From positions 1 to 36,314 of IMG/VR virus record IMGVR_UViG_3300005468_000041: 36,314 bases of DNA; one strand, given 5' to 3'. Origin of the DNA: a virus. The position numbers and the translations under genes were made by a program. The stretch's first letter is position 1. Every line of letters begins with the position of its first letter. Under the pieces are notes generated by a model that did not search any database, was not told where the DNA came from, and was given only the letters and a program-made list of their open reading frames with translations. This document shows, in pieces, positions 4,853 to 35,292 of this stretch.

Positions 4853-4956
4853 AATGCGCGTTCAAGTTATCACTGATGACCGTCAGTGGTCTCGCACACG
4901 CACCGGGAGCGGTCACTCCCTAAGTTCATTCCTCGTTTTCTGACGAGGCGAACCTG

Positions 4957-5026
4957 TGGGCCCGGGAGGACTTGAACCTCCCACCTTCCCGTTGTCGAGA
5001 TGCTCATCCCTGTGAGCTACGGGCCC
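4957..5026 (-). ncRNA. tRNA-like element with a 4-nt anticodon loop
   Basis: Apart from the anticodon loop this is a textbook tRNA: acceptor GGGCCCG/CGGGCCC (7 bp), TA at 8-9, D-arm GCTC-ACAGGGAT-GAGC, variable region AGGTG, T-arm GGAGG-TTCAAGT-CCTCC, discriminator A. The anticodon arm is TCTCG-ACAA-CGGGA, a 5-bp stem closed by only 4 nt. The total length is 70 nt, three short at exactly this place. It cannot present a normal anticodon. The scaffold is so well kept that selection for a non-decoding role is worth considering. Confidence 0.7.
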
Positions 5027-6911: not shown

Positions 6912-8147
6912 CTAGACAGTAACAGGTTGGCGTACAAGTTGTACACTAGCGGGGCGATGAGATTCTTTCTTGATCAACCATTCACGGTCGCCAACGAGCT
7001 CGCCACCATCTGGACCTCGTTCACCGTCCAGTGCAGCCTTGGCTTGCTCGCCGATCCATCGACCACATTGGGTTGAAATCCCCTTGCCCCAGGTCGCCTT
7101 CAGTGTTGCATTGTGACGAAGTGGATAGATGTTCCAGTCATCCGGGAAACCCATGATGCGTGCAACTTCACGGTGAGAGATGAAGCGGTTTTGCGTGGGG
7201 TGGAGTACGAGGTCCAGTGCACCACCCGTGATAACGCGTGCTGATCGTGAGTTGTCCCACCTCGTCACCGAGATGAATCCCATGTGGAAATCCTTGCGAA
7301 GAAGCTTCTCCTTCATGTAGTCCCACGATGGAGGGAGCTTGTTGTACTTGTTATAGAAGTACTGAGCGAACCTGCCGACGTGCCAACTCTGTGGCCAGAC
7401 CTCACCGTGTTGCAACCCCAGGTGTAGCAGGTCGAGAGTCCGTCGATGCGCGACGCCTGTCCGCGTTGTATGCCCGTCTACGCTGCTGGTTCTCTCGCGA
7501 GGCTTCTCTGACCACCAGGAGGCAGGTTGCCGATAGGGCTGCGGAAGCCAGGTCTGAGGGAGGTTCTCGATGTCACCAATGATATCGGGCAAAAGTGGCA
7601 CTCTGATGCTCGATGGGTACTCAACACTGAACGGAAGCTGTGATGCCACCCAGAAGTAACGCTTACGAACTGCCGCACCGCCAAGTTCGAGTGCATCGTG
7701 CATCACGTGATAAAGCCCGTACTTGAGTCCGCTCTTTTCCTCAAGATTCGCACGAAGCTCTTGCATGAGGACACGACCCTTGGAGTACGCCGGACGCACA
7801 GACTCCATAATGACGATTTGCGGCTTCATACGTGCTGCGTAGTCGGAGAGTGCCCACATACACTCGCTGACCTTGGCATCAACACCACGATGCTTCTTGT
7901 CCGTCATTACAGACCAAGCAGAGCAAGGCGGGTTAGAAGTCAGCACTTCAGCATCTTTCACGATCCACGTTTTTGGGTCACCGACTTGCGAGGTCCAGTG
8001 TTGCCCGAGCACACCACGATTCGCTAGGCAGTTCGGCATACCGAAACCGCCCTTTTGCTCCACTTTGTGCACAAGTTCGAAGCCCGCCTCGACCATGCCG
8101 ACGTCAAAGCCGCCCGCGAAGGTTTGTGACGCGACGAACTTATACAC
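6912..8147 (-). CDS. DNA (cytosine-5-)-methyltransferase family protein
   Basis: 411 residues with the C5-MTase order: motif I QTFAGGFDVGMVEAGFE (SAM binding, residues 8-24); motif IV TSNPPCSAWS with catalytic C75; motif VI as IVIMESVRP (residues 111-119), where ESV replaces the usual ENV; motif VIII as RKRYFWVA; the target-recognition region ~180-330; motifs IX-X as REVARIMGFPDDW and GKGISTQCGRWIG (variant of GNSV). The GTG start at 8147 has AGGAG upstream, overlapping the stop of the MazG-like gene. As the last enzyme of a sugar-activation operon in a phage that may carry modified cytosine, it might methylate residual cytosines, protect early DNA, or act on a modified base. Sequence specificity cannot be read from here. 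No partner restriction enzyme is visible. Confidence 0.88.
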   Translation of the reverse strand: MYKFVASQTFAGGFDVGMVEAGFELVHKVEQKGGFGMPNCLANRGVLGQHWTSQVGDPKTWIVKDAEVLTSNPPCSAWSVMTDKKHRGVDAKVSECMWALSDYAARMKPQIVIMESVRPAYSKGRVLMQELRANLEEKSGLKYGLYHVMHDALELGGAAVRKRYFWVASQLPFSVEYPSSIRVPLLPDIIGDIENLPQTWLPQPYRQPASWWSEKPRERTSSVDGHTTRTGVAHRRTLDLLHLGLQHGEVWPQSWHVGRFAQYFYNKYNKLPPSWDYMKEKLLRKDFHMGFISVTRWDNSRSARVITGGALDLVLHPTQNRFISHREVARIMGFPDDWNIYPLRHNATLKATWGKGISTQCGRWIGEQAKAALDGERGPDGGELVGDREWLIKKESHRPASVQLVRQPVTV

Positions 8148-8752: not shown

Positions 8753-9338
8753 TTGCGATCTTCTCCTCGTACTTCTCGTGAAGCGTTCCACCTGGGTGAT
8801 AAGACCCAAGTTGTTCAGTGGTGAGTGCATCAGCGACATTACAGACGAGCGTGTTGAGGATCGCCAACTGGACCGCCACCGATACTGTAGGAATGGTTCC
8901 GTGCTTTGAACCATCCTCATCGATTTTGTACGTTAGTGCGATATTACACCGCTCAGCCAACTCACTTTGATGGTTACCCGTTACCGCTGCAGTGATGATG
9001 CTTCCATTACTGCTGTGCAATTCAGCAATGTGTTGTGCGTCAAGCACCTCCTCAGTCTGTCCAGAGTGGCTGATGAAGATAATGACGTTGCGATCAATCC
9101 GCGAGATCGTCCCGAGGCCACCGTGTAGAAAATCAGTGGTGTGGATTGCGGAAGCGTGGTAACCCACCGATTGCAAGAGTGACGCGCCTAGCTGCGCTAC
9201 TCCAAACGACTTACCAACACCAGTAAGTGTCACAACACCGGTGAGTTCGATGCGTTCACGAAGTTGCTTGACAACTTTATCATCGATATTGTACTCGAGC
9301 TGCCTAAGCGCATAAATCGTCTTGCTGATGACGTCCAC
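8745..9338 (-). CDS. kdsD-like: SIS-domain sugar-phosphate isomerase, KdsD/KpsF-like (candidate D-arabinose-5-phosphate isomerase)
   Basis: 197 residues forming one SIS domain: TGVGKS (39-44), LHGGLG (71-76, as LHGDLG in KdsD), SHSGQTEE (90-97, the phosphosugar-binding Ser/Thr loop) and C-terminal HPGG (181-184, the signature of KdsD/GutQ/KpsF). It lacks the CBS domains of E. coli KdsD, like known short Ara5P isomerases. The expected reaction is D-ribulose-5-P to D-arabinose-5-P. The GTG start at 9338 overlaps the stop of the nucleotidyltransferase gene (TAGTG) with AGGAG 10 nt upstream, so the two are translationally linked. There is no LPS/KDO context here, which points to the isomerase feeding a pentose into the adjacent nucleotidyltransferase and glycosyltransferase. 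A GmhA-like heptose role is the alternative; HPGG argues for KdsD. Confidence 0.8.
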   Translation of the reverse strand: MDVISKTIYALRQLEYNIDDKVVKQLRERIELTGVVTLTGVGKSFGVAQLGASLLQSVGYHASAIHTTDFLHGGLGTISRIDRNVIIFISHSGQTEEVLDAQHIAELHSSNGSIITAAVTGNHQSELAERCNIALTYKIDEDGSKHGTIPTVSVAVQLAILNTLVCNVADALTTEQLGSYHPGGTLHEKYEEKIASE

Positions 9339-10846
9339 TAGCCCACAATCTCCTTAATCAGTTGAACACCGCGTGAAATCATGACTTCACGTTCACGCGG
9401 ACTGTGGAGTGGTGCACCCGCGAGAAGAAGGCAACCTTCAGCGACTTGAAGCTGTTCAAGCGAAAAGTATCCCTCAAGAAACTCATCCATAGCTTTGATT
9501 TCATCAGCACGATCAGGCATCAGCACATTGTCATTATAGAACAAATTGTGTGTGATCGCTGAGAATCCGGCATGGTACGAGTACCGCAACTTCGCGATCT
9601 CATAGATCAGCGGCATGAACGGTGTGCCGCGTGGATCTACAAGCTTGCACGTACCTGTGTTGATGGAGTAAAGGATGTTGTTGAAGTTCAAATCACCGTG
9701 CGCACGCACCATTGATGCTGAGGTAAACACCTCACTTGCGCGCTCAAGCAAATCAAAATGACGCGTCGCGAGCGCGTGATCAAGAGTGGTGAGTCGCTCA
9801 AGTGCTTTACCTGCGAACCATGATGCCACCCGAACTGCACTTGCAACTTCGTTATAAGACTTGATTGACCACCATAGATCATGATCAAGACGGTCGGTCA
9901 CAGACTGGAGAATCTGGACCCACGTATCGGGCCTCCCAGGCCAGTAGAGCCACAGTTCTGAGAGCGTAGGTAGATCGACGTACTCCATCGCATACCCACC
10001 GTCGAGTACACTACCGAAGTACCTCGGAATGAGGTTTGCCGACCTGTCTCCCATGGCCGATTGCTCAATCAGCCAATTTCGCTGTGCTGCGAACTGCTCT
10101 CCAGTGCCTCTCTTCGTAATAATACCTGCATCATCTAGTGAAAGCGTGTGCTCAGACCGCGCGATGAATCGGGTTCGACGTGCAATTGCGAGAGCGTGCA
10201 CATCGCCAATGTCGAGCCACGTTGGAAACGCAATGGTTCTCGCAGTAGGGAAGCACGAGAGAAGTGGTCCCATGCCCACTTCATGCTCGTCGTTCAAGTT
10301 GGCGCGTGTCATTACCGTGCTGGCTTCACTGAGTAGCTCGATGGTGTCGGCAAAGTGGTATGCGCCAATGGTAACTGAATCCGCTACACGCACCTGCTTA
10401 TCGACATACGTGCCATCATCTTCGCGCACACAAAATGAACGACTACCAACTGGTGTAAGTGCTTCACCGATCCACGTTCCCGAGTGTCGATCAAGCTTTT
10501 CCTCGATGAATGTGTCACTCATCAGAACGTACGTGTCGTGCTTGTGACGCTCTGGGCCCAATGCGTGCAGGCCTACGAGGATTGCATCCACCGGACCACG
10601 TGAAACGTTTTGCGGTACGACCTTGATGTCGTAATGCCCAGCGCGCTCGAGTGCAGTCTGGACCTGGATGTGCGTGGCCGGATTTGCCACGACGATGATG
10701 CGCACGCAATTAGCGGCACGCATCAACTCGATTTGGTGAAAGAGGTGAGGACGTTGGCCGATGGAAACGAGTGCTTTGCTGATCTGTGTTGAGAGCGGTC
10801 CGAGACGTGATGCCTTACCGCCGGCGAGAATGATTCCGTTGCTCAC
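9338..10846 (-). CDS. Fused sugar nucleotidyltransferase and APH-type kinase
   Basis: 502 residues with two domains. Residues 1-~235 are a nucleotidyltransferase: GIILAGGKASRLGPLSTQISKAL (the GGxxxRLxPLT...K pyrophosphorylase signature), VLMSDT (metal-binding Asp), FPTWLDIGD near the domain end. Residues ~260-502 resemble aminoglycoside/choline kinases: AHGDLNFNNIL (catalytic loop, H383-D385) and LVDPRG (Mg-binding D404). This combination could phosphorylate C1 of a sugar phosphate and transfer a nucleotide to give an NDP-sugar, as the separate HddA/HddC enzymes do for heptose. With the Ara5P-isomerase-like neighbour, an NDP-arabinose is the natural guess. The GTG start at 10846 overlaps the glycosyltransferase stop (GTGA). 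Substrate and nucleotide are inferred. Confidence 0.78.
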   Translation of the reverse strand: MSNGIILAGGKASRLGPLSTQISKALVSIGQRPHLFHQIELMRAANCVRIIVVANPATHIQVQTALERAGHYDIKVVPQNVSRGPVDAILVGLHALGPERHKHDTYVLMSDTFIEEKLDRHSGTWIGEALTPVGSRSFCVREDDGTYVDKQVRVADSVTIGAYHFADTIELLSEASTVMTRANLNDEHEVGMGPLLSCFPTARTIAFPTWLDIGDVHALAIARRTRFIARSEHTLSLDDAGIITKRGTGEQFAAQRNWLIEQSAMGDRSANLIPRYFGSVLDGGYAMEYVDLPTLSELWLYWPGRPDTWVQILQSVTDRLDHDLWWSIKSYNEVASAVRVASWFAGKALERLTTLDHALATRHFDLLERASEVFTSASMVRAHGDLNFNNILYSINTGTCKLVDPRGTPFMPLIYEIAKLRYSYHAGFSAITHNLFYNDNVLMPDRADEIKAMDEFLEGYFSLEQLQVAEGCLLLAGAPLHSPREREVMISRGVQLIKEIVG

Positions 10847-12147
10847 AGATCGAGTCGCCTCTCAATGGTAGTGACACAACGCTGACGTTCGAGTTCACGC
10901 TTGAAGTGTTCGTACTGGACCCTCGCCAGCCACTCGTACGTGGAACGCGATGTCTTGACTGCCTGGACCTTACGTGCGAGATCAGCAGGATCTTTGATGC
11001 GAAGCCACTTGTGCAAGTTGACCATGTCATCTGAGTAACGATCACCGTTGGGGAACAGAATATGATCCTGCGTGTCATAGAGTGGGTGAAAGAAACAGAT
11101 GATGCCCGTGGCAAATGATTCCCATGGCTTTGCTGTCGCCCATCCTGATCCAGAGGATGGGGTGGTGAAGGTGCACTTTGTCGTCTGCATCAAGTTGAAG
11201 ATTTGGTTGTATGGGATTGGGTTGATTTCGGTGTTGAGCTTTGCTAGCGAGTCTTTCGACCAGGTGCCATGAACCCAAGAAGGTCCGAGTGGTCGAACGT
11301 AGTGTTCCATGGCATGGAGTCGAGTGAGTTCGGGTCGCATACCATAGTTGCGTGCCTCGTTGATGAGGATTCCGAAATCGTGATCTCGATCTTCCCACCC
11401 GGCTGGAGCTTCCTCACCAAATCCTCGAGGAATCCCGACGAGTTCGAGTCCGGATCCCACGTAAGTATCAGTCGTTCGCCACCGCTCTCCCATACCTTCG
11501 GCTCGTGCGTTAAACGTATCGAAACCGTGTTCTTGGGGAGTCCTAGTGTCGCCATAACGCTCATTCCACTCGTCACGGGTCCAGTCGAACTGGCACAACA
11601 CGGGATGACGCCGAGGCCACGCAAGATCACGAGACTTCAAGTAGTTGCGAGCATCAGGAAGAAGCCATACTTCCTCACGCTTTAGAGGATCAACATCACG
11701 CCACCGGTTGATTCCACGTGCAATGAACGACACGTACTCAACGAATGAGATTTGTGGGCTCGTGACGACGTTGCGGTTGTCCACCCTGGGAATGGGCGAG
11801 TTGCTTGTGCCGTGCTGTCCAAGCCAGAACACCATGCCATCGAGTGAATCGAACGTTGGGCCGGTGACACGGTCTAGCCGATCGATGCGATCTTGCAGTG
11901 ATGCCTTTGCGTGAGAGCGTGCTTCGGCTCGCCACTCTTGCCACGGATTCGTGATGTTAGGCATGTGTGGCGCCCAACCGGAGTTCTTTCCGACGACGAC
12001 GAATTCGACGTCAGGATTGCGAGTGGCTAGTTGCTCAAGTAGATACGGCGGCTCATTATCTCCACCGGATTCACCCCACTTTTTCGGGTTAATCTCAATG
12101 ACTCGTCCTAGCTTCCCATACCCAACACGCTTACGAAACGTAGGCAT
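10843..12147 (-). CDS. GT-B glycosyltransferase, candidate DNA (arabinosyl/pentosyl) transferase
   Basis: 434 residues from ATG 12147 (AAAGGAC 7 nt upstream; an in-frame TTG at 12177 lies before that ribosome site and is rejected). The start MPTFRKRVGYGKLGRVIEINPKKWG looks like a GT-B N-terminal beta-alpha unit. The middle has PDVEFVVVGKNSGW and GMVFWLGQHG. The C-terminal donor site reads TPSSGSGWATAKPWESFATGIICFFHP followed by a DPADLARKV helix, similar to GT4-type nucleotide-sugar-binding regions. It heads the operon GT - nucleotidyltransferase/kinase - SIS isomerase - MazG-like - C5 methyltransferase, with overlaps at each of the first junctions. Clustering with sugar activation and the dCMP-hydroxymethylase-like enzyme suggests it glycosylates hydroxymethylated (or hydroxylated) cytosine in DNA. 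It could alternatively glycosylate virion protein or host surface. Confidence 0.72.
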   Translation of the reverse strand: MPTFRKRVGYGKLGRVIEINPKKWGESGGDNEPPYLLEQLATRNPDVEFVVVGKNSGWAPHMPNITNPWQEWRAEARSHAKASLQDRIDRLDRVTGPTFDSLDGMVFWLGQHGTSNSPIPRVDNRNVVTSPQISFVEYVSFIARGINRWRDVDPLKREEVWLLPDARNYLKSRDLAWPRRHPVLCQFDWTRDEWNERYGDTRTPQEHGFDTFNARAEGMGERWRTTDTYVGSGLELVGIPRGFGEEAPAGWEDRDHDFGILINEARNYGMRPELTRLHAMEHYVRPLGPSWVHGTWSKDSLAKLNTEINPIPYNQIFNLMQTTKCTFTTPSSGSGWATAKPWESFATGIICFFHPLYDTQDHILFPNGDRYSDDMVNLHKWLRIKDPADLARKVQAVKTSRSTYEWLARVQYEHFKRELERQRCVTTIERRLDL

Positions 12148-12198
12148 ACAGTTCGTCCTTTCCGAATGATCTGTCAATTCCTCAACGCGCAGCGGGGC

Positions 12199-20373: not shown

Positions 20374-21066
20374 CTAGAGAAGTTCGGCGTGCACCTGCAC
20401 CCCGAGCTGATGAAGTAGACGAGTACCACTGTCGTCACGGTACTGTGCTGCTGCGACAACGCGAGTGATTCCCGCGTTCACGATCAATTTAGCGCAATCC
20501 AGACAGGGTGCCATTGTCGTGTACAACGTAGCACCGTCGGTTGACACGCCATTCTTCGCGGCGAATGCGATAGCATTGGCCTCGGCGTGTACGCTGAATC
20601 GGCAAGGTTGCCTTGAGTTGCAGTCAGCCCAATGGTGCTTGGGATCAGGGTTCGTCGGAAGCTTTGTGCAGTCGCATGCGTGATTGCAGTGTGGAAGTCC
20701 GGTCGCGGTGCCGTTGTATCCACTGGACACTGGTCTCGTCTCAATGACGATGACAGCACCGACCTGCGCGCGTGAGCAGGTGGCACGATCGGCCATCAGC
20801 TTCGCCATTTGCATGAGCGTCTGGTCCATCGAGGGACGGGTCTTTTTCACAGGCAACTTGGAATGTTCACGAAGTGCTGCGATGGCAGCTGTGCGGGTTG
20901 TGCAGAAGAATGGAGACTTGTATCCTTGCACCGAACTCCATGCGTAGTGCTTTTCTTTTGCACCACTTGGCAATATCACGTTGACTTGCCACACGAAACC
21001 GATTGGCTTCGTCTGCGCATCATCTTCATAGATGCGTTGTTCGTTGATGTTATCTTCGTCACTCAC
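20374..21066 (-). CDS. dcd-like: dCMP deaminase family protein
   Basis: 230 residues. The zinc-dependent deaminase core is HAEANAI (H160, E162) and APCLDCAK (C188, C191), with a second Cys/His-rich region before it (HCNHACDC, C127-C133) like the structural zinc site of phage dCMP deaminases. An ~80-residue N-terminal extension precedes the catalytic domain. The reaction would be dCMP to dUMP, feeding ThyX (34606). The GTG start at 21066 overlaps the TGA of the thymidylate-synthase-family gene. Sharing an operon with the dCMP-hydroxymethylase-like enzyme suggests the two partition one dCMP pool; T4 has a comparable pair. Confidence 0.85.
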   Translation of the reverse strand: MSDEDNINEQRIYEDDAQTKPIGFVWQVNVILPSGAKEKHYAWSSVQGYKSPFFCTTRTAAIAALREHSKLPVKKTRPSMDQTLMQMAKLMADRATCSRAQVGAVIVIETRPVSSGYNGTATGLPHCNHACDCTKLPTNPDPKHHWADCNSRQPCRFSVHAEANAIAFAAKNGVSTDGATLYTTMAPCLDCAKLIVNAGITRVVAAAQYRDDSGTRLLHQLGVQVHAELL

Positions 21067-21932
21067 GCTGACACCACGTTTTCATTGGGAAGAAGTGTTT
21101 CGATCAGGTCGAGCTGTTTGGTGTACCATGGGTTGGCTTCATCTTCCTCCTGCGTGGTGTTGCCTTCAAGGAGATATGCTGCGACGTCCAGTGATGATGT
21201 CGCACGATCTGCTGAGCACACACCAAGTGGCAGATCGATGAATACGAAATCAGTTGGTGCATGAAGCTTGCTCGCTGCTTCGATGTCACGCTCGTAGATG
21301 TGCAGACTCGTCGTGTGATGCACGTATCTGCCTACTGGCATGTGCAGTTCGTATGCAATGGTGTGTTGAAGTTGCGTGAACATAAAGAAGTCATACGGTA
21401 CACCCAACCACACGTCTTGGCTGCGCATATGCGTGTGCATTTCGAGAGCTGGAAAGCCGTGACCACTTTCACGGATGAGGAACTGAAAGAACACGGTGCA
21501 CGGCTTGTCACCGATGTGCCGTAGGTCAGCCTTGGTCCAGATGACTGCGATGGCTTGCCTACTGGACGGATCCTCCTTGAGGAGTTCGATGCAATCCGCA
21601 AGTTGCTGCACCACGCGAGGTCCGTAAGCGCCGTAGTCGGGATCCGTAGCATCTACCAGGACGTTTTCGAACGTCGGAGCGGCTACCCTGACCAAATCAG
21701 AGCGTGGAGTTCCAGAGATGAGCTGGAGCGCTTCAAGTGCCGCAAGCTTCAAGTTCACACCGCGGCCAACACCGACTGGAAGCAGTGGCTCAAGGGTGTT
21801 GGGAACAATCAACGTCACTGCAGTGAGTTCGCGCGTGGGAATTCCACGTGCTGAAACGCTCTCGCCCTTATTGATGATGTGGTTGACCAACTTGACGTAG
21901 TCGCCACGTAGGTCGTTCAGCTTCAGTTCCAT
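21063..21932 (-). CDS. Thymidylate-synthase-family enzyme, predicted dCMP hydroxymethylase (or related C5 modifier)
   Basis: 289 residues with the ThyA fold signature: SRQAIAVIW (R125), KPCTVFFQF (catalytic C145), MRSQDVWLGVPYDFFMF (R170, D173, D181), LHIYERD (H211, Y213). The position equivalent to Asn177 of E. coli thymidylate synthase, which selects dUMP, is Asp (D181 in GVPYD). In T4 dCMP hydroxymethylase the same position is Asp, and it recognises cytosine. The substrate is therefore probably dCMP, giving 5-hydroxymethyl-dCMP with methylene-tetrahydrofolate. A separate ThyX covers dTMP, freeing this gene for the new role. Its start follows the kinase gene directly, and its stop overlaps the deaminase start. 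Products other than hydroxymethyl (hydroxyl, methyl) are possible. Confidence 0.82.
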   Translation of the reverse strand: MELKLNDLRGDYVKLVNHIINKGESVSARGIPTRELTAVTLIVPNTLEPLLPVGVGRGVNLKLAALEALQLISGTPRSDLVRVAAPTFENVLVDATDPDYGAYGPRVVQQLADCIELLKEDPSSRQAIAVIWTKADLRHIGDKPCTVFFQFLIRESGHGFPALEMHTHMRSQDVWLGVPYDFFMFTQLQHTIAYELHMPVGRYVHHTTSLHIYERDIEAASKLHAPTDFVFIDLPLGVCSADRATSSLDVAAYLLEGNTTQEEDEANPWYTKQLDLIETLLPNENVVSA

Positions 21933-22897
21933 CAGAGCCTTTCAACACGATCATAAAAATCTGTCCGACCGCGACCGAGAATATCGTTCACGTATGTCGA
22001 ACCTGTGCTGTGCTTGAAGCGACGAATGAATTGGGGGTGTGACACCGGCCAGTCAGCCCAGTGCGCAGCTTTGAATGCTTTGCGCCCAAGAGCAACCGAC
22101 GTAGGCCTGTCGAGCATATGACGTAGAAGATCGATGTCATCCACATCGCATGCGTTAACAATACCCATCGAGCGAAGCTCACGGATGTCAGCGTGTCGCG
22201 CGAGTGCATTAGTGAGGAAATGTCCAGAGGTGGACTGATACGGCATGAACGCAGGCCGAGGATCAGATGCAGAAGCATCAGGATCGACATGATGTCGCAC
22301 GTCACCGATAAGAAGCATGCGCGGTGATGGTGGACCGATATACGTCGTGAATGGATTTAGCTTCACGGCCGCTGTCGACTCAATGCCTGCACGGTGAATG
22401 ATTGCTTGGATCGTGTCATCAATCACGTGCCGACCATCCACGTTGACGATAGGCAAGAGACTTGTCATCGCAACGATCTCGTACAATTCATTGAGTTGAT
22501 GTCCCTTGCCTGCTTCGATGAGATCATCACCACGACGAGAGATGCACTGATCAAGTACACGATCGTTAGCTGACACGTGCACGATGATGGCACCACGTGA
22601 ACGCAAGAACATCTCGATGTGAAGACGAACACCGTCATCCATAAGCGTTGGACGGTTCAACACTGTGGGGTAAACACTTTCACCCCAATGCCAACGATCA
22701 CAGATGATGTGGTGACCTCGTTGCGGACGATAGTCCAGCAGGGGTGTTTCATACTCGTCGAGTGGATGTACTTCCGGTGGACCCTTATGGAGAAGAGTCA
22801 CGGTGTTATCGGGAAATCGCTTCTCGAGTTCACACGCTAGTTTGCTCGCAAGAGTTGATTTTCCGCTGCAATCCGGCCCTTCCAATATGATAAGCAT
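21932..22897 (-). CDS. Deoxynucleoside monophosphate kinase fused to a uracil-DNA-glycosylase-like domain
   Basis: 321 residues. Residues 1-~180 are a thymidylate-kinase-type P-loop domain: MLIILEGPDCSGKSTLA (Walker A), IICDRWHWGESVY (the DRW/DR-Y motif) and SRRGDDLIEAGK (lid-like). Residues ~190-321 form a second domain: MLLIGDVR, a TSGHFLTNAL segment, SMGIVNACD, VALGRKA and VSHPQFIRRF, which resembles the uracil-DNA glycosylase superfamily order (N-terminal strand loop, central NAC, C-terminal HPxxxRR). A kinase for modified dCMP would be needed to make the triphosphate, and the second domain may recognise a base. Both roles are inference. ATG at 22897 has AAGGAAAG upstream. Confidence 0.72.
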   Translation of the reverse strand: MLIILEGPDCSGKSTLASKLACELEKRFPDNTVTLLHKGPPEVHPLDEYETPLLDYRPQRGHHIICDRWHWGESVYPTVLNRPTLMDDGVRLHIEMFLRSRGAIIVHVSANDRVLDQCISRRGDDLIEAGKGHQLNELYEIVAMTSLLPIVNVDGRHVIDDTIQAIIHRAGIESTAAVKLNPFTTYIGPPSPRMLLIGDVRHHVDPDASASDPRPAFMPYQSTSGHFLTNALARHADIRELRSMGIVNACDVDDIDLLRHMLDRPTSVALGRKAFKAAHWADWPVSHPQFIRRFKHSTGSTYVNDILGRGRTDFYDRVERL

Positions 22898-26452: not shown

Positions 26453-27631
26453 TTAGTCACCCTTCACATTGAGAATCTGGTGAAGCGTGTGCTTGATGGT
26501 GACAAGATCAATCGAGTCGGCCATCACGACGTCGATGTCCTTGTACGCACCGGGGATTTCATCGACGAACGCTGCACTGTCGCGGTACTCGATGCCCTTC
26601 ATTGCTTCACGCAGGTCGTCATGCGTGAACATCTTTCGCGCAGTGGAACGCGAGAAGTTGCGCCCAGCGCCATGAGGTGAAGAGTCAAGGGACATGTAGT
26701 TACCCTTGCCCTGGACCACATACGATGCTGTCCCCATGGAACCAGGGATGAGACCCATCTTTCCCGCGGTGGCATCGATGGCGCCCTTGCGCGACAGCCA
26801 CACCTGCTTGCCGAAATGCTTCGCGGATGTGGTGTAGTTATGATGGCAGTTGATGGTCTCTTGCACCTCGATTGATTCGCCTGACCACTCCTCGACGCAC
26901 AGCATGAGACGATCCATCATTTCTTCGCGATTGAACCACGCAAACTCCTGGGCCCATCGCATTTCACGGATGTACGCCCAGAACTCCTTATCACCTTCGA
27001 CGAGGTATGCAAGATCCGGGTTGGGTAGGTTGATCCAACGCTTCTCACACTGCTGTGCCGCAATCTTGATGTGTCGCTGCGCGATCTTGTTGCCAACACC
27101 ACGTGAGCCCGAGTGGAGAAAGAGCCACACGCGATCCATTTCGTCGATGGTGATCTCGATGAAGTGATTGCCACCACCGAGTGTGCCGAGCTGAAGCTTC
27201 CAATTCGATGCATATGCGTCTGGATCGAACTCAGCTGACTCGAGAGCCTTCATCTCGAGGATGTCCGTGCGTAGCTTGGCGGTGTTGGTGAGTTGCGTGT
27301 TGTACTTACCGGCTGAGGTCGGGATGGTCGCTTCGATCAGTTCGCGAAGCGCCGTAAGAGACTTCTCGGATTCCGTGAAGTCATGTTTGGTGAATTGTGT
27401 ACGCACTGCGATCATGCCGCAGCCGATATCCACGCCGACCGCCGCGGGCATGATGGCACCGAGAGTTGGGATAACACTGCCGACGGTGCTTCCACGCCCA
27501 AGATGCGCATCAGGCATGAGAGCGACGTGTGGAAAGATGAACGGCATCGTTGAAGTCTGCTCGGCCTGCTTGCGTGTCTGGTCTTCGAGAATGGACGCGA
27601 AGTTGACGAGCTTATCGTTGATCTGTTCCAC
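26453..27631 (-). CDS. rtcB: RtcB-type RNA ligase
   Basis: 392 residues covering the whole RtcB family: MPDAHLGRGSTVGSVIPT, AVGVDIGCGM (metal-binding C71), GTLGGGNHFIEI, HSGSRGVGN, NCHHNY, LIPGSMGT-SYVV and SPHGAGRNFSR (the His that takes GMP). The enzyme joins RNA 3'-phosphate or 2',3'-cyclic-phosphate ends to 5'-OH ends using GTP and Mn2+. These are exactly the ends left by anticodon nucleases and many toxin RNases. In a phage with its own tRNAs it probably repairs tRNAs cut by host defence (inference). GTG 27631 has AGGAG 9 nt upstream. No archease partner is visible. Confidence 0.95.
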   Translation of the reverse strand: MEQINDKLVNFASILEDQTRKQAEQTSTMPFIFPHVALMPDAHLGRGSTVGSVIPTLGAIMPAAVGVDIGCGMIAVRTQFTKHDFTESEKSLTALRELIEATIPTSAGKYNTQLTNTAKLRTDILEMKALESAEFDPDAYASNWKLQLGTLGGGNHFIEITIDEMDRVWLFLHSGSRGVGNKIAQRHIKIAAQQCEKRWINLPNPDLAYLVEGDKEFWAYIREMRWAQEFAWFNREEMMDRLMLCVEEWSGESIEVQETINCHHNYTTSAKHFGKQVWLSRKGAIDATAGKMGLIPGSMGTASYVVQGKGNYMSLDSSPHGAGRNFSRSTARKMFTHDDLREAMKGIEYRDSAAFVDEIPGAYKDIDVVMADSIDLVTIKHTLHQILNVKGD

Positions 27632-29460: not shown

Positions 29461-31824
29461 ATGACGGGGCCGTATGGGGAGGCCGCGGAGCTTTACCGCA
29501 ATGCTGGTTGGCAGGGTGTGCTGCCTATTGTGGGTAAACGAATGGCACCGACTGGGTACACCGGGTATAACGGTGCATGGCCTACTGATGCCGTCATTGA
29601 TGACTGGGTGAATGTCCGGGGCGATGAGAACATCGGTCTGCGCATGCCTGATGACATCATCGGTATCGATGTCGACGCGTATGACGGACGTAAGGGCCTC
29701 GAGACCATCGAGTGGTGGGAATCACAGCTGGATTGTGTACTGCCGCTTTCACCCAGGTCCAGTGCGAGAACCGATGGCTCGGGCATCAGGTTCTTCCGGG
29801 TTCCGCCTGGCTTGAACTGGAAGTCGGATCTTGGCACCGGCTCAAACGTCGAGATCATCCGCTTCGGGCACCGGTTCGCCATGGTGTGGCCGTCTGTGCA
29901 TCCTGACATCAATGAGACGTACAAGTGGCTCGCGCCGGATAGCACGGTCTTGGATGACATCCCGATGGCGGGGGAATTCCCTGCGCTGCCTGACGAATGG
30001 GTCGCGGGACTACAAGCAGGTAGTGGTCCTCGAACGTCTGGTAGTGGTGAAGATCATAGTGGTGATGACGCACCTATCACTGCACGAGATGGTTCAGTCA
30101 TCAATGTTGAAGCAATGTATACGCATGGCTTGCCTGATGGTGAACAGAATAAGATGCTTTTCGACTACATGTGTTCCATGCGAGCAAGGAACTTTCGACA
30201 TGTTGAGATGATCAATGCTGGTATGGTCTTGCTTCAGCGTATGGAAAATCGTATTGGCGATAAGCCATGGGGTGTCGAAGACATCACAGATATGGTTAGT
30301 CGTGTTAGGCGTAGTTACCCCGCGGGATTGTCATCAGGAATGATGCAGGGTTTGGGTCCGGGGGCTCTCGCGTACGCACAACGACTCGCCGGTGGACAGG
30401 CTGTCACCGAGGTTAGTGAACTTCCACCACGTGAAGCTCTTGCAACCGACATGGGTAACTCCATGCGGATGGTGCAGTTGCTCGGAGATCGTATTCGCTA
30501 CTCAGCTAATGAAGATCAGTGGTATGTCTGGGACGATCGACGTTGGTGTCCTGATGAAACAAACCGCGTGATGGATCTCACTAAGACCGTTATCGACTCA
30601 ATTCGTGCCGACGCCATTGTCGCTGAAGGAGATGAACGCACTCGCTGGCTTAACTGGGCAAGAGACTCGGAAAGCATTGCACGTCGTAAAGCAATGATCG
30701 CTGGTGCCGAGTCTGAGCCTGAGCTTGTCATTACCACAAATGATCTCGACACCGACTCAAATATTCTCGTCGTGCGAAACGGTACCTTGGACTTGCGCAC
30801 AGGGCAATTGCGAGAGTCGAGAAGGGAAGAGCTGTGTAGTCATTTGGCTGAAGTAGACTTTGATGCTGATGCTTCGTATGAACGTTGGCTTGGGCACGTA
30901 AGCTTCTTGTGCAATGATGATCCCGTTCTTATGGCATACATTCAACGTGCGGCTGGCTACACACTTACGGGCAACGTCGGCGCAAGGTCGTTCTTCTTCA
31001 TGGAAGGCACTGGGTCAAATGGCAAAAACGCGTTCATTGAACCGTTGATGATGGTGATGGGTTCGTACGCGAAGACTGCTACCACTGCACTGTTGACTGG
31101 TGGTGATGAGCAGCATCCCACCATCCTGGCGGATCTGCAAGGATCAAGATTGGTGTTCATCGATGAGACACGGCAGGGTAAGGCGCTGAACGTCGAGCGA
31201 CTGAAAGCTTTGACAGGAAGCAAGCGCGTCAAGGCACGGAAAATGCAAAAGGACTTCTTTGAGTTCGACGCGCAGTTTAAGCTGTGGATCGCTGGGAATG
31301 GGCAACCTACCATCAGGGATCCCAGTGATGGTGTCTGGAATCGAATGCATCGCATTGTCTGTCATGGCAAGGTCGCACCCGGTAAAGTTATCGATCGCTT
31401 TGGCGACCTACTTTACGCAGAAGAGGCGTCGGGCATTCTTCGTTGGGCACTTGAGGGACTGCGGGGTTGGCGTGAACTTGGCGGGCTAGGGATTCCGGAC
31501 AGCATCAAGGAAGATGTGCAGTCTTATCGTGATGATGAAGACTACGTTGGGCAGTTCATCGAGGATGTCTTGGTTAAGACAGGAAATACCGGAGATTTCA
31601 TCTTCAACACTGACTTGTACTTTGCCTATGAACAGTGGGCTACTGCTCATGGCTTGCGCGGTATCGATAAGTTGAATTCTGCGCTCTTGGGTAAAGCATT
31701 GGGATCACATGGCATTGGGCGGCCTAAGCAGGGTAAGATGCGGAATGGCAAGCGCGAACGTGGCTATTGCGGTGTTGCGTTTAGTGATGGTAAGGCTGAC
31801 TGGGTCAATAGCTTTAAGCAGTAG
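29461..31824 (+). CDS. Prim-Pol primase fused to SF3/D5-like helicase
   Basis: 787 residues. The N-terminal AEP primase-polymerase domain (1-~165) shows GLRMPDDIIGIDVDAYDG with the metal-binding D70xD72, then SGIRFFRVPPG and NVEIIRFGHRFAMVWPSVHP. A linker leads to a D5-N-like region (WLGHVSFLCNDDPVLMAYIQRAAGYTLTG) and an SF3 helicase with Walker A GTGSNGKN (about 516-523), Walker B LVFIDETRQG (about 564-573) and the DPSDGVWNRMHRI arginine-finger region. It should unwind the origin and prime synthesis for the PolA-type polymerase. It is the first rightward gene (ATG 29461, GAGGG upstream), and the putative iteron origin lies directly after it. Confidence 0.92.
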   Translation: MTGPYGEAAELYRNAGWQGVLPIVGKRMAPTGYTGYNGAWPTDAVIDDWVNVRGDENIGLRMPDDIIGIDVDAYDGRKGLETIEWWESQLDCVLPLSPRSSARTDGSGIRFFRVPPGLNWKSDLGTGSNVEIIRFGHRFAMVWPSVHPDINETYKWLAPDSTVLDDIPMAGEFPALPDEWVAGLQAGSGPRTSGSGEDHSGDDAPITARDGSVINVEAMYTHGLPDGEQNKMLFDYMCSMRARNFRHVEMINAGMVLLQRMENRIGDKPWGVEDITDMVSRVRRSYPAGLSSGMMQGLGPGALAYAQRLAGGQAVTEVSELPPREALATDMGNSMRMVQLLGDRIRYSANEDQWYVWDDRRWCPDETNRVMDLTKTVIDSIRADAIVAEGDERTRWLNWARDSESIARRKAMIAGAESEPELVITTNDLDTDSNILVVRNGTLDLRTGQLRESRREELCSHLAEVDFDADASYERWLGHVSFLCNDDPVLMAYIQRAAGYTLTGNVGARSFFFMEGTGSNGKNAFIEPLMMVMGSYAKTATTALLTGGDEQHPTILADLQGSRLVFIDETRQGKALNVERLKALTGSKRVKARKMQKDFFEFDAQFKLWIAGNGQPTIRDPSDGVWNRMHRIVCHGKVAPGKVIDRFGDLLYAEEASGILRWALEGLRGWRELGGLGIPDSIKEDVQSYRDDEDYVGQFIEDVLVKTGNTGDFIFNTDLYFAYEQWATAHGLRGIDKLNSALLGKALGSHGIGRPKQGKMRNGKRERGYCGVAFSDGKADWVNSFKQ

Positions 31825-31847: not shown

Positions 31848-32231
31848 TGAACAGTGAACAGCAGTTGGAAAAAATTGCTGTTCAGTGAACAGGAAGACTA
31901 ATGTTTGTGAACAGTAAGCGTCGACTTGTGAACAGCAGGATCGACGCTTACTGTTCACAATGATAAGAGATCTTATGAGGTTCTGAAGTCGATGAATGGG
32001 GTATTTTTTAGTCTTGTGAACAGAGTGAACAGAAAGAACAGTAAAATCTCCAATTGTCAGTATACGCCCCTCTGAGTCACTAAGACTAACATGGTTAATA
32101 CAAACGGACTACGCGACCGTCCGTATTGGCAACTACCGGAGAGTTGCTGTTCACCTGTTCATAGGAGGACATATTTAATAAAAACCCGCGCCTGTGAACA
32201 GCAATTTTGTTGATCTCCGGAGAGCTGTTCA
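31848..32231. repeat. Iteron array: candidate replication origin
   Basis: This 459-nt non-coding gap (31825-32283) holds 13 exact TGAACAG/CTGTTCA heptamers: forward at 31848, 31855, 31886, 31908, 31929, 32017, 32026, 32195; reverse at 31878, 31951, 32147, 32155, 32225; plus AGAACAG at 32035. Many extend to CTTGTGAACAG. A perfect 20-bp inverted repeat, TTGTGAACAGTAAGCGTCGA (31905-31924) and its complement (31941-31960), has a 16-nt loop carrying another iteron. Also present are the direct repeat CCGGAGAG before two copies, an ACGGAC/GTCCGT hairpin near 32105-32124 and AT-rich stretches. Being next to the primase-helicase, it is best read as an origin; a repressor-binding cluster is the alternative. 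Confidence 0.75.
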
Positions 32232-32283: not shown

Positions 32284-32634
32284 ATGAATGAAACCGAGTG
32301 GGATAAGAAGCGTAAGTGGTTTCCCGTATCAGCGGTGCCGATGCCTAACACTATGGCATGGCGAAAATTTAGCGAGAATGGTCCATGGGTTAAACTCGCT
32401 GAATGCCCAGTTGCTCTTGTTACTTATCATCTATGCGAGGTGATGGAAGTAAAATCAAATGCAATAGAGTACGCACGTTGTAATGACTTTGTGTATGATA
32501 TGTTTGTAACTCCTTCGCTTTGGGTGAATGACTCAGGTAACTTCTGGTCACCTCAAATTAAGAATACATTTGATCCATACCGCGCTACTGATGCACTCAT
32601 TGCATTTATGCCACATGGCGTCAATCTTGGGTAA
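32284..32634 (+). CDS. Unrecognised protein, lower GC
   Basis: 116 residues from ATG 32284 (AAGG upstream). Rich in aromatic residues (KKRKWFPVSAVPMPNTMAWRKFSENGPWVKL; VTYHLCEVMEVKSNAIEYARCNDFVYDMFVTPSLWV), with no transmembrane helix. Its DNA is visibly more AT-rich than the flanking genes, matching the origin region before it and suggesting acquisition or relaxed codon use. It overlaps the next gene's likely start by 20 nt. Its position right after the iterons makes an origin-binding protein conceivable, but no DNA-binding motif is visible. Confidence 0.55.
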   Translation: MNETEWDKKRKWFPVSAVPMPNTMAWRKFSENGPWVKLAECPVALVTYHLCEVMEVKSNAIEYARCNDFVYDMFVTPSLWVNDSGNFWSPQIKNTFDPYRATDALIAFMPHGVNLG

Positions 32635-33304
32635 GCGAGCCGATCGTAAGATGGCGAGAGCAGCGGTCATGCGTTGCCGAAAGTTGAAGCGCGGCGGAGT
32701 CGGTGAGTGTAGGATGCCGGCCGGTGATGGAACGAAGCATCGCGGATACGGGCCGTGTCGCATTCACGGTAAGGCAGTCGAGCATAGGGCGTGGGAGATG
32801 GCGATGGATGTAGCACGGGAACTGCACATCTCACCGTGGGAAGCATTGCTCAAGAGCGTAAGGCTGAGCGCCGGACGCGTGGCATGGGTCGATGAGCAGC
32901 TTCGTGAGGCAACACGAAGGAATGATGGTGAGGAGAGTGCAAGTGAAGTCAGGATCTGGCTGAAGGAAAGTCGAGACGAGAGGACGCACCTGGCTAAGGT
33001 CTCGAAAGCAGCCATCGACGCGGGTGTCGCGGAAAGACTCGTACGAAATGTCGAGTTGGAGGGGCAGTTGGTGGCGGAGGTCATCGGGCGAGTGCTTGAC
33101 AAGCTTTCACTGGACCCCGCGATGAGGGTGCTGGCTTTCGAGGAGGCGCATCGGCAGCTGCTAGTACTAGAGGCCCCGTCTGGTACCCCAGTAGAGGTGC
33201 AGGGCACATGGAGTCCGCCGGGGGTTGTCGACCCTGGGGTTGATAGCGGGGGCGGTCCGGGGAGGTCTGAGGAGGATGACCATGGAGATGGAACGCGATC
33301 GTAG
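32615..33304 (+). CDS. terS-like: Putative small terminase subunit
   Basis: 229 residues if ATG 32615 is used; ATG 32651 is an alternative and neither has a strong ribosome site. Basic N-terminus with RCRKLKRGGVGECRMPAGDG and GYGPCRIHG, a CxxxxxxC ... CxxH zinc-like module. A helical core follows: ISPWEALLKSVRLSAGRVAWVDEQL, SRDERTHLAKVSKAAIDAGVAERLVRNVELEGQLVAEVIGRVLDKLSLDP. The ERxHLAKVxKxAIDAGVAERxVxxxExQG segment is what I know from small terminase subunits of actinophages. The C-terminus is low-complexity and acidic. TerS binds pac/cos DNA and starts packaging; no large subunit is in the window. Confidence 0.55.
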   Translation: MASILGKRADRKMARAAVMRCRKLKRGGVGECRMPAGDGTKHRGYGPCRIHGKAVEHRAWEMAMDVARELHISPWEALLKSVRLSAGRVAWVDEQLREATRRNDGEESASEVRIWLKESRDERTHLAKVSKAAIDAGVAERLVRNVELEGQLVAEVIGRVLDKLSLDPAMRVLAFEEAHRQLLVLEAPSGTPVEVQGTWSPPGVVDPGVDSGGGPGRSEEDDHGDGTRS

Positions 33305-34476: not shown

Positions 34477-34609
34477 GGAATTGCACTGGTCAATCGGTGA
34501 TCACGATGAGCAAGATGAAGTGAAGACGCCGTGTGCCTGGTGCCAAGAGCCTGACGGCGATGACTGTCGTTGCTACGCTGAGCAAGATGAAGAGGAGTAC
34601 GCACGGTGA
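34469..34609 (+). CDS. 46-residue acidic CxxC protein
   Basis: GTG 34469 has AGGAGG 5 nt upstream, a convincing ribosome site. The product has PCAWCQEPDGDDCRCYAE, four Cys in two CxxC/CxC pairs (probable zinc), within a strongly acidic chain (DHDEQDE, EQDEEEYAR). Its TGA overlaps the ThyX start codon. Confidence 0.6.
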   Translation: MPRELHWSIGDHDEQDEVKTPCAWCQEPDGDDCRCYAEQDEEEYAR

Positions 34610-35292
34610 AGGTTGACCTGCTCGCGTTCACGGCTATCACGCCTACTGCACTTGAGGTCTTGGAGTACCAGCGAGGAACAGCAGCGGCCGATCACCTTGC
34701 GGAACTCGGTGGCCGCGAATGCTACCAGTCTTTTCACCGGCCTAATCCGAAGACGTCGGACAACGAGGATTACCTCAAGCACATTCTCGAGATTGATCAC
34801 ACGTCAATCATGGAACACTCGAGCGCGACGTTCCGCATCACCTTCGTGAGTAGGAATTTGCTTGTTGAGCTGACCCGTCACAGGCATCTCTCGTTCTCGG
34901 TCCAGTCACAGCGTTACGTCGACGAGTCGCATGGTCAGATGATCATTCCACCGGACATCATGGGAGATACGGCACTCTCTGGACTTGTGGAGAAGATTGA
35001 TCACTTCCATCAGGACGCGAAGATTCTTTACGATGAGATCGTTGATACGATGATGAAAGAGGGCTACAAGCGCAAGCAGGCAAGGCAAGCGGCCAGGGCC
35101 GTGCTCCCAGGTGGGCACGAGACGCGCATCATCGTCACGGGAAACATTCGCGCGTGGCGACACGTAATTCACATGCGCTTTAGCGAGCACGCTGATGTGG
35201 AGATTCGCGAGATGGCCAAGCAAATTCTTGGACACTTGCGCATCATCGCACCGAACCAGGTGCAGGATATCAGCGACGATCCTCGTCAGTGA
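34606..35292 (+). CDS. thyX: Flavin-dependent thymidylate synthase ThyX
   Basis: 228 residues. The ThyX signature RHRxxSxxxxSxR is present as RHRHLSFSVQSQR (~91-103); flanking conserved pieces are IDHTSIMEHSSATFRI and the C-terminal HMRFSEHADVEIREMA. It makes dTMP from dUMP with methylene-tetrahydrofolate, FAD and NADPH. It complements the dCMP deaminase at 20374-21066, which supplies dUMP, while the ThyA-family protein seems retargeted to dCMP. GTG 34606 overlaps the upstream stop (GTGA). It contains one dispersed heptamer (34900). Confidence 0.95.
   Translation: MKVDLLAFTAITPTALEVLEYQRGTAAADHLAELGGRECYQSFHRPNPKTSDNEDYLKHILEIDHTSIMEHSSATFRITFVSRNLLVELTRHRHLSFSVQSQRYVDESHGQMIIPPDIMGDTALSGLVEKIDHFHQDAKILYDEIVDTMMKEGYKRKQARQAARAVLPGGHETRIIVTGNIRAWRHVIHMRFSEHADVEIREMAKQILGHLRIIAPNQVQDISDDPRQ

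Follow-up and report, generated by a model that had tools for sequence, protein, structure and literature searches.

The repeat array at 31848–32231 of the stretch of DNA analysed here, a 36-kb IMG/VR fragment (the window), is very probably a phage replication origin of the P4/PICI type, whose iterons would be bound by the winged helix of the adjacent primase-helicase; this reading draws on sequence comparison, structure prediction and analogy with characterized replicons. It builds on the repeats themselves, a layout conserved among relatives, the confinement of the iterons to one cluster in each genome, the fold predicted for the domain, and the way in which this domain and the iterons vary together. 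The source is a tailed phage, probably of an actinobacterial host, and no close DNA relative of the window was found among cultured phages. P4 alpha, SaPI/PICI Rep and Cch2, from which binding, melting, loading and priming are extrapolated (PMC4234260, PMC7581432, PMC6092414), serve as the model: the C-terminal winged helix of the primase-helicase would bind the GTGAACAG iterons (palindromic set A, triplet B and inverted set C), the bound initiator would bring helicase rings to the array, the AT-rich gap that separates sets A and B would open, and the helicase and Prim-Pol domains of the same protein would then unwind and prime.

Exact TGAACAG occurs 13 times in the 384 nt of the array (9 copies on the plus and 4 on the minus strand, both strands being scanned), for an expectation of 0.065 (Poisson P ~6e-26 for at least 13), and 16 times in the whole window, for which dinucleotide shuffles give a mean of 6.2 and a maximum of 12. 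The copies outside the array (9452, 30141 and 31629) are at chance level. The longer iteron unit in the window is approximately GTGAACAG(C/T)A, and a 14th iteron with one mismatch (AGAACAG) lies at 32035–32041. A sequence-only reading had described 13 mixed-orientation copies, a perfect 20-bp inverted repeat around an iteron, and AT-rich stretches, directly downstream of a Prim-Pol/SF3 helicase gene, and this description holds: the count was reproduced on both strands, the 16-nt loop of the inverted repeat contains the iteron at 31929, the AT-rich gap stands out from the window, and the gene upstream carries the domains in question (see the table). Iteron sets A and B flank the AT-rich gap, a layout like that of PICI origins.

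Features of the proposed origin and its flanks, with positions in the window
Feature	Position	Strand	Basis or remark
TGAACAG, plus-strand copies	31848, 31855, 31886, 31908, 31929, 32017, 32026, 32195	+	exact match
TGAACAG, minus-strand copies	31878, 31951, 32147, 32155, 32225	-	exact match
Iteron set A: 7 TGAACAG, mixed orientation	31848..31960		5/7 in register with L003
Perfect 20-bp inverted repeat, arms with inverted iterons	31905..31960		arms 31905-31924 / 31941-31960
AT-rich gap, candidate unwinding element	31961..32011		65% AT vs 45% in the window
Iteron set B: head-to-tail triplet, 9-bp steps, third copy AGAACAG	32017..32041	+	also in L003, L026
Spacer with non-iteron block (32081-32129)	32043..32146		near-identical in L003 outside hairpin loop
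Iteron set C: inverted pair 32147/32155, then 32195 (+) and 32225 (-)	32147..32231		3/4 in register with L003
Initiator: Prim-Pol / SF3 (D5-type) primase-helicase, 787 aa	29461..31824	+	Pfam, TIGR01613, AlphaFold
C-terminal winged-helix domain (residues 693-787), putative iteron reader	31537..31821	+	model, fold match
Wing of the C-terminal domain	~31723-31785	+	part of the winged-helix domain
116-aa ORF, outside the conserved unit	32284..32634	+	no phage match
Conserved downstream gene, PHROG 3678, syntenic flank of the proposed origin	32528..33304	+	identity in relatives

The non-iteron block of the spacer reads TAAGACTAACATG...ACGGACTACGCG...ACCGTCCGT and is near-identical in L003, the closest relative, save for an 11-nt insertion in the loop; it is poorly kept in farther relatives, and ACAAACGGACTACGCG used as a query matched only the L003 genome and unrelated sequence. 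An Rfam scan of the array region gave no match. A search of viral contigs for tandem TGTGAACAGTGAACAG gave a single pair in each of 6 contigs, none of which has a D5 primase, and these were discarded as chance.

The four close relatives, whose primase-helicases are 72% (L003), 62% (L027), 52% (L026) and 49% (L028) identical to that of the window, all harbor an array of similar layout directly 3' of this gene, each with its own iteron (GTTACAGCA/GTAACAGCA in L003, GGTACAGTA in L027, GGTTACACTA in L026 and TACCGGAAC in L028), so that iterons, judged by sequence, turn over fast among relatives. The intergenic region of L003, which comes from a 93-kb contig with repeated ends, aligns with that of the window over its full length while the repeats differ, and 10 of the 13 window iterons match an L003 iteron in column and strand (mean of 1.8 under random placement, P 1e-4), a test in which the aligner itself favours such columns. 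Set A holds a perfect iteron palindrome in the window and the four relatives (20, 15, 14, 14 and 12 bp), built in each relative of its own iterons; the AT-rich gap is 62–67% AT in the relatives, although their loci are 30–45% AT; iteron runs with approximately 9-bp steps are present in all five, with a triplet in L003 and L026 and comparable runs in L027 and L028; and set C is found in all five, thin in L026 with one clear copy.

Iterons are also concentrated at one place in the genome: there is one cluster and no second in the window, and the same is true of the complete L003 genome, where 15 of 16 iterons of the 93 kb lie in this one spot. Among complete genomes (84–93 kb in the relatives), the main cluster contains 15/16 iterons in G001, 10/12 in G010, 7/11 in G009 and 7/8 in G011. 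The GC-skew analysis proposed earlier as a check for an origin is suggestive: minima lie 2.7–5.1 kb from the array in three of the four complete relatives and G010 does not fit, and these minima coincide with a switch of gene strand, which is a confounder.

The gene upstream of the array encodes a primase-helicase with an N-terminal Prim-Pol domain (PF09250, E 1e-15), D5_N (PF08706, 88.1 bits for a cut-off of 22.4), DUF5906 (PF19263) and a weak Pox_D5-like match (PF03288), and it scores 226.8 bits (cut-off 108.7) with TIGR01613, 'phage/plasmid primase, P4 family'. Its Walker A motif (31003–31030) is GTGSNGKN, in which N replaces the usual S/T; the four closest relatives share this motif, as do 31 of 150 D5-type loci, the others having GKS, GKT or GKG. 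Residues 326–787 were modelled with AlphaFold (pLDDT 92.8), and a model predicted for residues 638–787 shows a winged helix (pLDDT ~90–95 in the domain). Among solved structures, the RFX1 DNA-binding domain matches it best (Z 10.2, 2.1 A over 75 residues), ahead of RFX5 and of C962R from African swine fever virus (ASFV), whose tail scores Z 8.2. A sequence profile of the winged helix, independent of the model, also retrieves the C962R tail (E 3e-7) and RFX5 (E 0.008). We take the D5-type winged-helix fold to be present in P4 alpha, C962R and human RFX1 alike. The alignment of the winged helix with the P4 alpha C-terminus is weak (hhalign probability 16%), and the P4 origin-binding domain is absent among the fold matches listed for the model; the C962R tail has been reported as similar to both the P4 alpha origin-binding domain and RFX1 (PMC10516667).

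This domain has diverged more than the helicase: in the four closest relatives it is 61, 47, 32 and 23% identical to that of the window, vs 90, 83, 68 and 65% for the helicase. The modelled winged helix is likely the iteron reader, as suggested by two natural exchanges in which the C-terminal end and the iterons changed together. The resemblance of the iteron sequences to RFX sites is only a lead: the exact RFX half-site RGYAAC occurs in 3 of 30 motif consensuses (P 0.004), an idea that arose after the fold match.

The first exchange concerns L123 and L188, two loci that keep the order of the window (primase, array, PHROG 3678) and whose primase-helicases are 97% identical over 446 aa, differing at 2 of the first 410 positions and at 12 of the last 36. 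L123 harbors 6 copies of ACCGGTAAC and none of ACCGGAAAC, L188 none of the former and 5 of the latter, and approximately 7 iteron copies change the same base in register. DNA identity between the two is 94–100% up to the wing codons, 42–67% over the wing and array, and ~98% in the next gene; the differences include synonymous ones, which probably reflects the exchange of a segment by recombination. A second divergent stretch, amid loci that are mostly 94–100% identical, is found at 7000–7830 of L123; as these accessory regions at 7.0–7.8 kb also differ, a second exchanged gene acting as the reader is conceivable.

The second exchange was observed in another phage group, near Phage Wrath, in which two wing types (GKTKG or KRERG) occur with AATAAC or AGTAAC iterons. 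Between the types, the helicase core is 84% and the DNA-binding domain 49% identical, and identity drops from ~90% to 43–62% over the C-terminal domain and origin and then recovers, vs ~84–98% throughout for pairs of the same type. Across 22 members of this group, origin identity still tracks that of the domain once core identity is accounted for (partial Mantel 0.52, P 4e-4), while the type-B loci L158–L160 show no excess of AGTAAC over AATAAC. It is somewhat better than an even bet that in D5-type phages the wing and the iteron array next to it make up a specificity cassette that can be exchanged, with helicase and downstream gene kept constant and an RFX1-like wing reading the iteron. That initiator domain and iterons can diverge together is known in principle from iteron replicons; for these phages, the literature searched gives no description of the two cassette exchanges. 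The earlier proposal of an iteron origin beside the primase-helicase gains from them, as it does from the conserved position and layout, the AT-rich gap and the C-terminal winged helix.

These exchanges also bear on the products of the neighbouring genes. The PHROG 3678 gene invariably lies next downstream in the close relatives (58–80% identity in the four, 40% in the L040 genome), and small-terminase genes often adjoin their sites, so its product might read the repeats as a site for packaging (pac) or for another function. This is very improbable: in L123 and L188 the PHROG 3678 protein is near-identical beyond its first ~20 residues though every iteron changed, which speaks against that protein as the reader, the large terminase lies ~33 kb away in G001 and is non-adjacent in G009, G010 and G011, and PHROG 3678 relatives are annotated only as hypothetical. 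The gene at 32284–32634 is the first past the array, and the sequence-only reading had named its protein for a gel shift. That this protein is an iteron-binding initiator or regulator is scarcely credible and was rejected: it has no phage homologue and no convincing match in four complete relatives or in L026, and the relatives, none of which encodes it, still keep the array.

Another explanation is that the repeats are operators at which a phage repressor or activator controls an operon starting near 32284, given a plausible start just past the last iteron and a pre-ATG stretch (CGATCGTANGATAAGGTTNAAGACATGA) conserved in L003. However, the unit is asymmetric and spread over 384 nt in both orientations, a scan of the array region found no sigma-70 promoter above chance, the iterons form a single cluster per genome instead of scattered stoperators, and they swap with the primase-helicase wing while the neighbouring DNA stays constant, all of which makes operators quite improbable.

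Binding by the primase-helicase at a replication origin is in line with several known systems, among them phage P4, which shares the repeat core. The sequence-only reading held the consensus to be undescribed, yet the annotated type 1 repeats of P4 contain TGAACAG (TGTTCACC; the opposite strand, taken one base further, reads GGTGAACAG), and the 9 copies of TGAACAG in P4 all lie in ori and crr, the latter directly 3' of the gene for the alpha initiator. P4 alpha resembles the window in its SF3/D5-type initiator helicase, its C-terminal DNA-binding domain and its 3' repeat array, the repeats being likewise of mixed orientation with a GTGAACAG core; the helicase halves are 22% identical, and the common iteron core could reflect either shared descent or convergence. 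The two differ in the primase, which is of the TOPRIM type in P4 alpha (PMC4234260) and a Prim-Pol in the window, and in the number of repeat clusters, two and separate in P4 (ori and crr) but one in the window, as in the complete L003 genome, so the window does not carry a P4 replicon strictly speaking. According to the P4 annotation, crr, which has the same position relative to alpha, is required in cis and distinct from ori, and the array could by comparison be an incompatibility, copy-control or partition locus with initiation nearby. With no second iteron cluster in the window or the complete L003 genome to serve as a separate ori, this is improbable, though less so than operators or a packaging site.

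The SaPI/PICI Rep (Pri-Rep) proteins provide a second parallel for an origin at the array: the origins of PICIs consist of two iteron sets around an AT-rich region, and the iterons lie immediately 3' of the initiator, as in the window (PMC6092414). Both SaPI Rep and Cch2 use a C-terminal domain, which determines specificity in SaPI/PICI Rep, to bind the iterons located 3' of their own gene (PMC7581432), and the same would hold for the window; AEP and SF3 domains are also joined in SaPI5 PriRep1 (PMC10516667). The window differs from these satellites in belonging to a large phage, in its other iterons, and in its extra palindrome and conserved spacer. SCCmec Cch2 likewise has direct repeats just 3' of its own gene, bound by the isolated C-terminal domain (PMC7581432), but its primase is a separate CCPol-MP complex and three AAGTG iterons lie at its putative origin. 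Finally, pRN1 ORF904 and phage BIP-1 share with the window an AEP primase, an SF3 helicase, a C-terminal winged helix and a downstream palindrome. For such AEP-SF3-winged-helix proteins, a stem-loop without iterons has been proposed as the recognition feature (PMC4234260), a proposal that the array does not fit, though its iteron palindrome is conserved: here, the palindrome is itself made of iterons and lies inside an iteron array. The proposed origin, with its initiator, belongs to a broad kind, namely an SF3 initiator helicase with a 3' iteron origin.

To what extent does this arrangement extend to D5-type loci at large? Within 600 nt past the stop, short repeats form a significant array in 41 of 127 D5-type loci (mutually non-independent) and in 13 of 226 control stretches (P 9e-11), and approximately two thirds of the more distant D5 loci have no significant array downstream. 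In a deep comparison of 26 motifs, iteron similarity tracks the initiator (r 0.56) and the winged-helix domain adds nothing over the helicase (partial Mantel not significant), the domain-specific effect on iterons being confined to shallow comparisons. A scan of genome contigs returned only two distant relatives. Very regular convergent iteron triplets with 8–10-bp steps lie 3' of the primase stops of L186, L091, L137, L076, L175 and L080, with unrelated consensuses such as CTATCGTCCCTAT and CCCTTCG.

Elsewhere in the window, two thymidylate-synthase genes of different families (PF00303 and ThyX), a P-loop kinase-like gene adjoining the first of them, a glycosyltransferase-like gene, a nucleotidyltransferase and a C5-methylase (21063–22897, 34606–35292, 9338–12177 and 6912–8147) form a gene set that suggests hypermodified pyrimidines in the phage DNA. 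A tRNA-like gene called with a 2-nt anticodon (4956–5026) lies beside tRNA-Glu and tRNA-Met genes, and an RtcB-type tRNA-splicing ligase is encoded at 26453–27631.

Taken together, these data provide a probable origin for a group of large phages that lack close relatives in culture. As the repeats and the initiator tail change together in relatives, natural variants allow protein-DNA recognition to be deduced. The recognition code of D5-type winged helices becomes directly testable through orthologous origins that differ in their iterons and through near-isogenic phage pairs that differ almost only in the last ~37 initiator residues and one base per iteron. If the wing and array are indeed exchanged as a cassette, homologous recombination would swap wing and origin as one unit and origin incompatibility classes would arise quickly within a phage lineage, so that phages could change their replication specificity in one recombination step.
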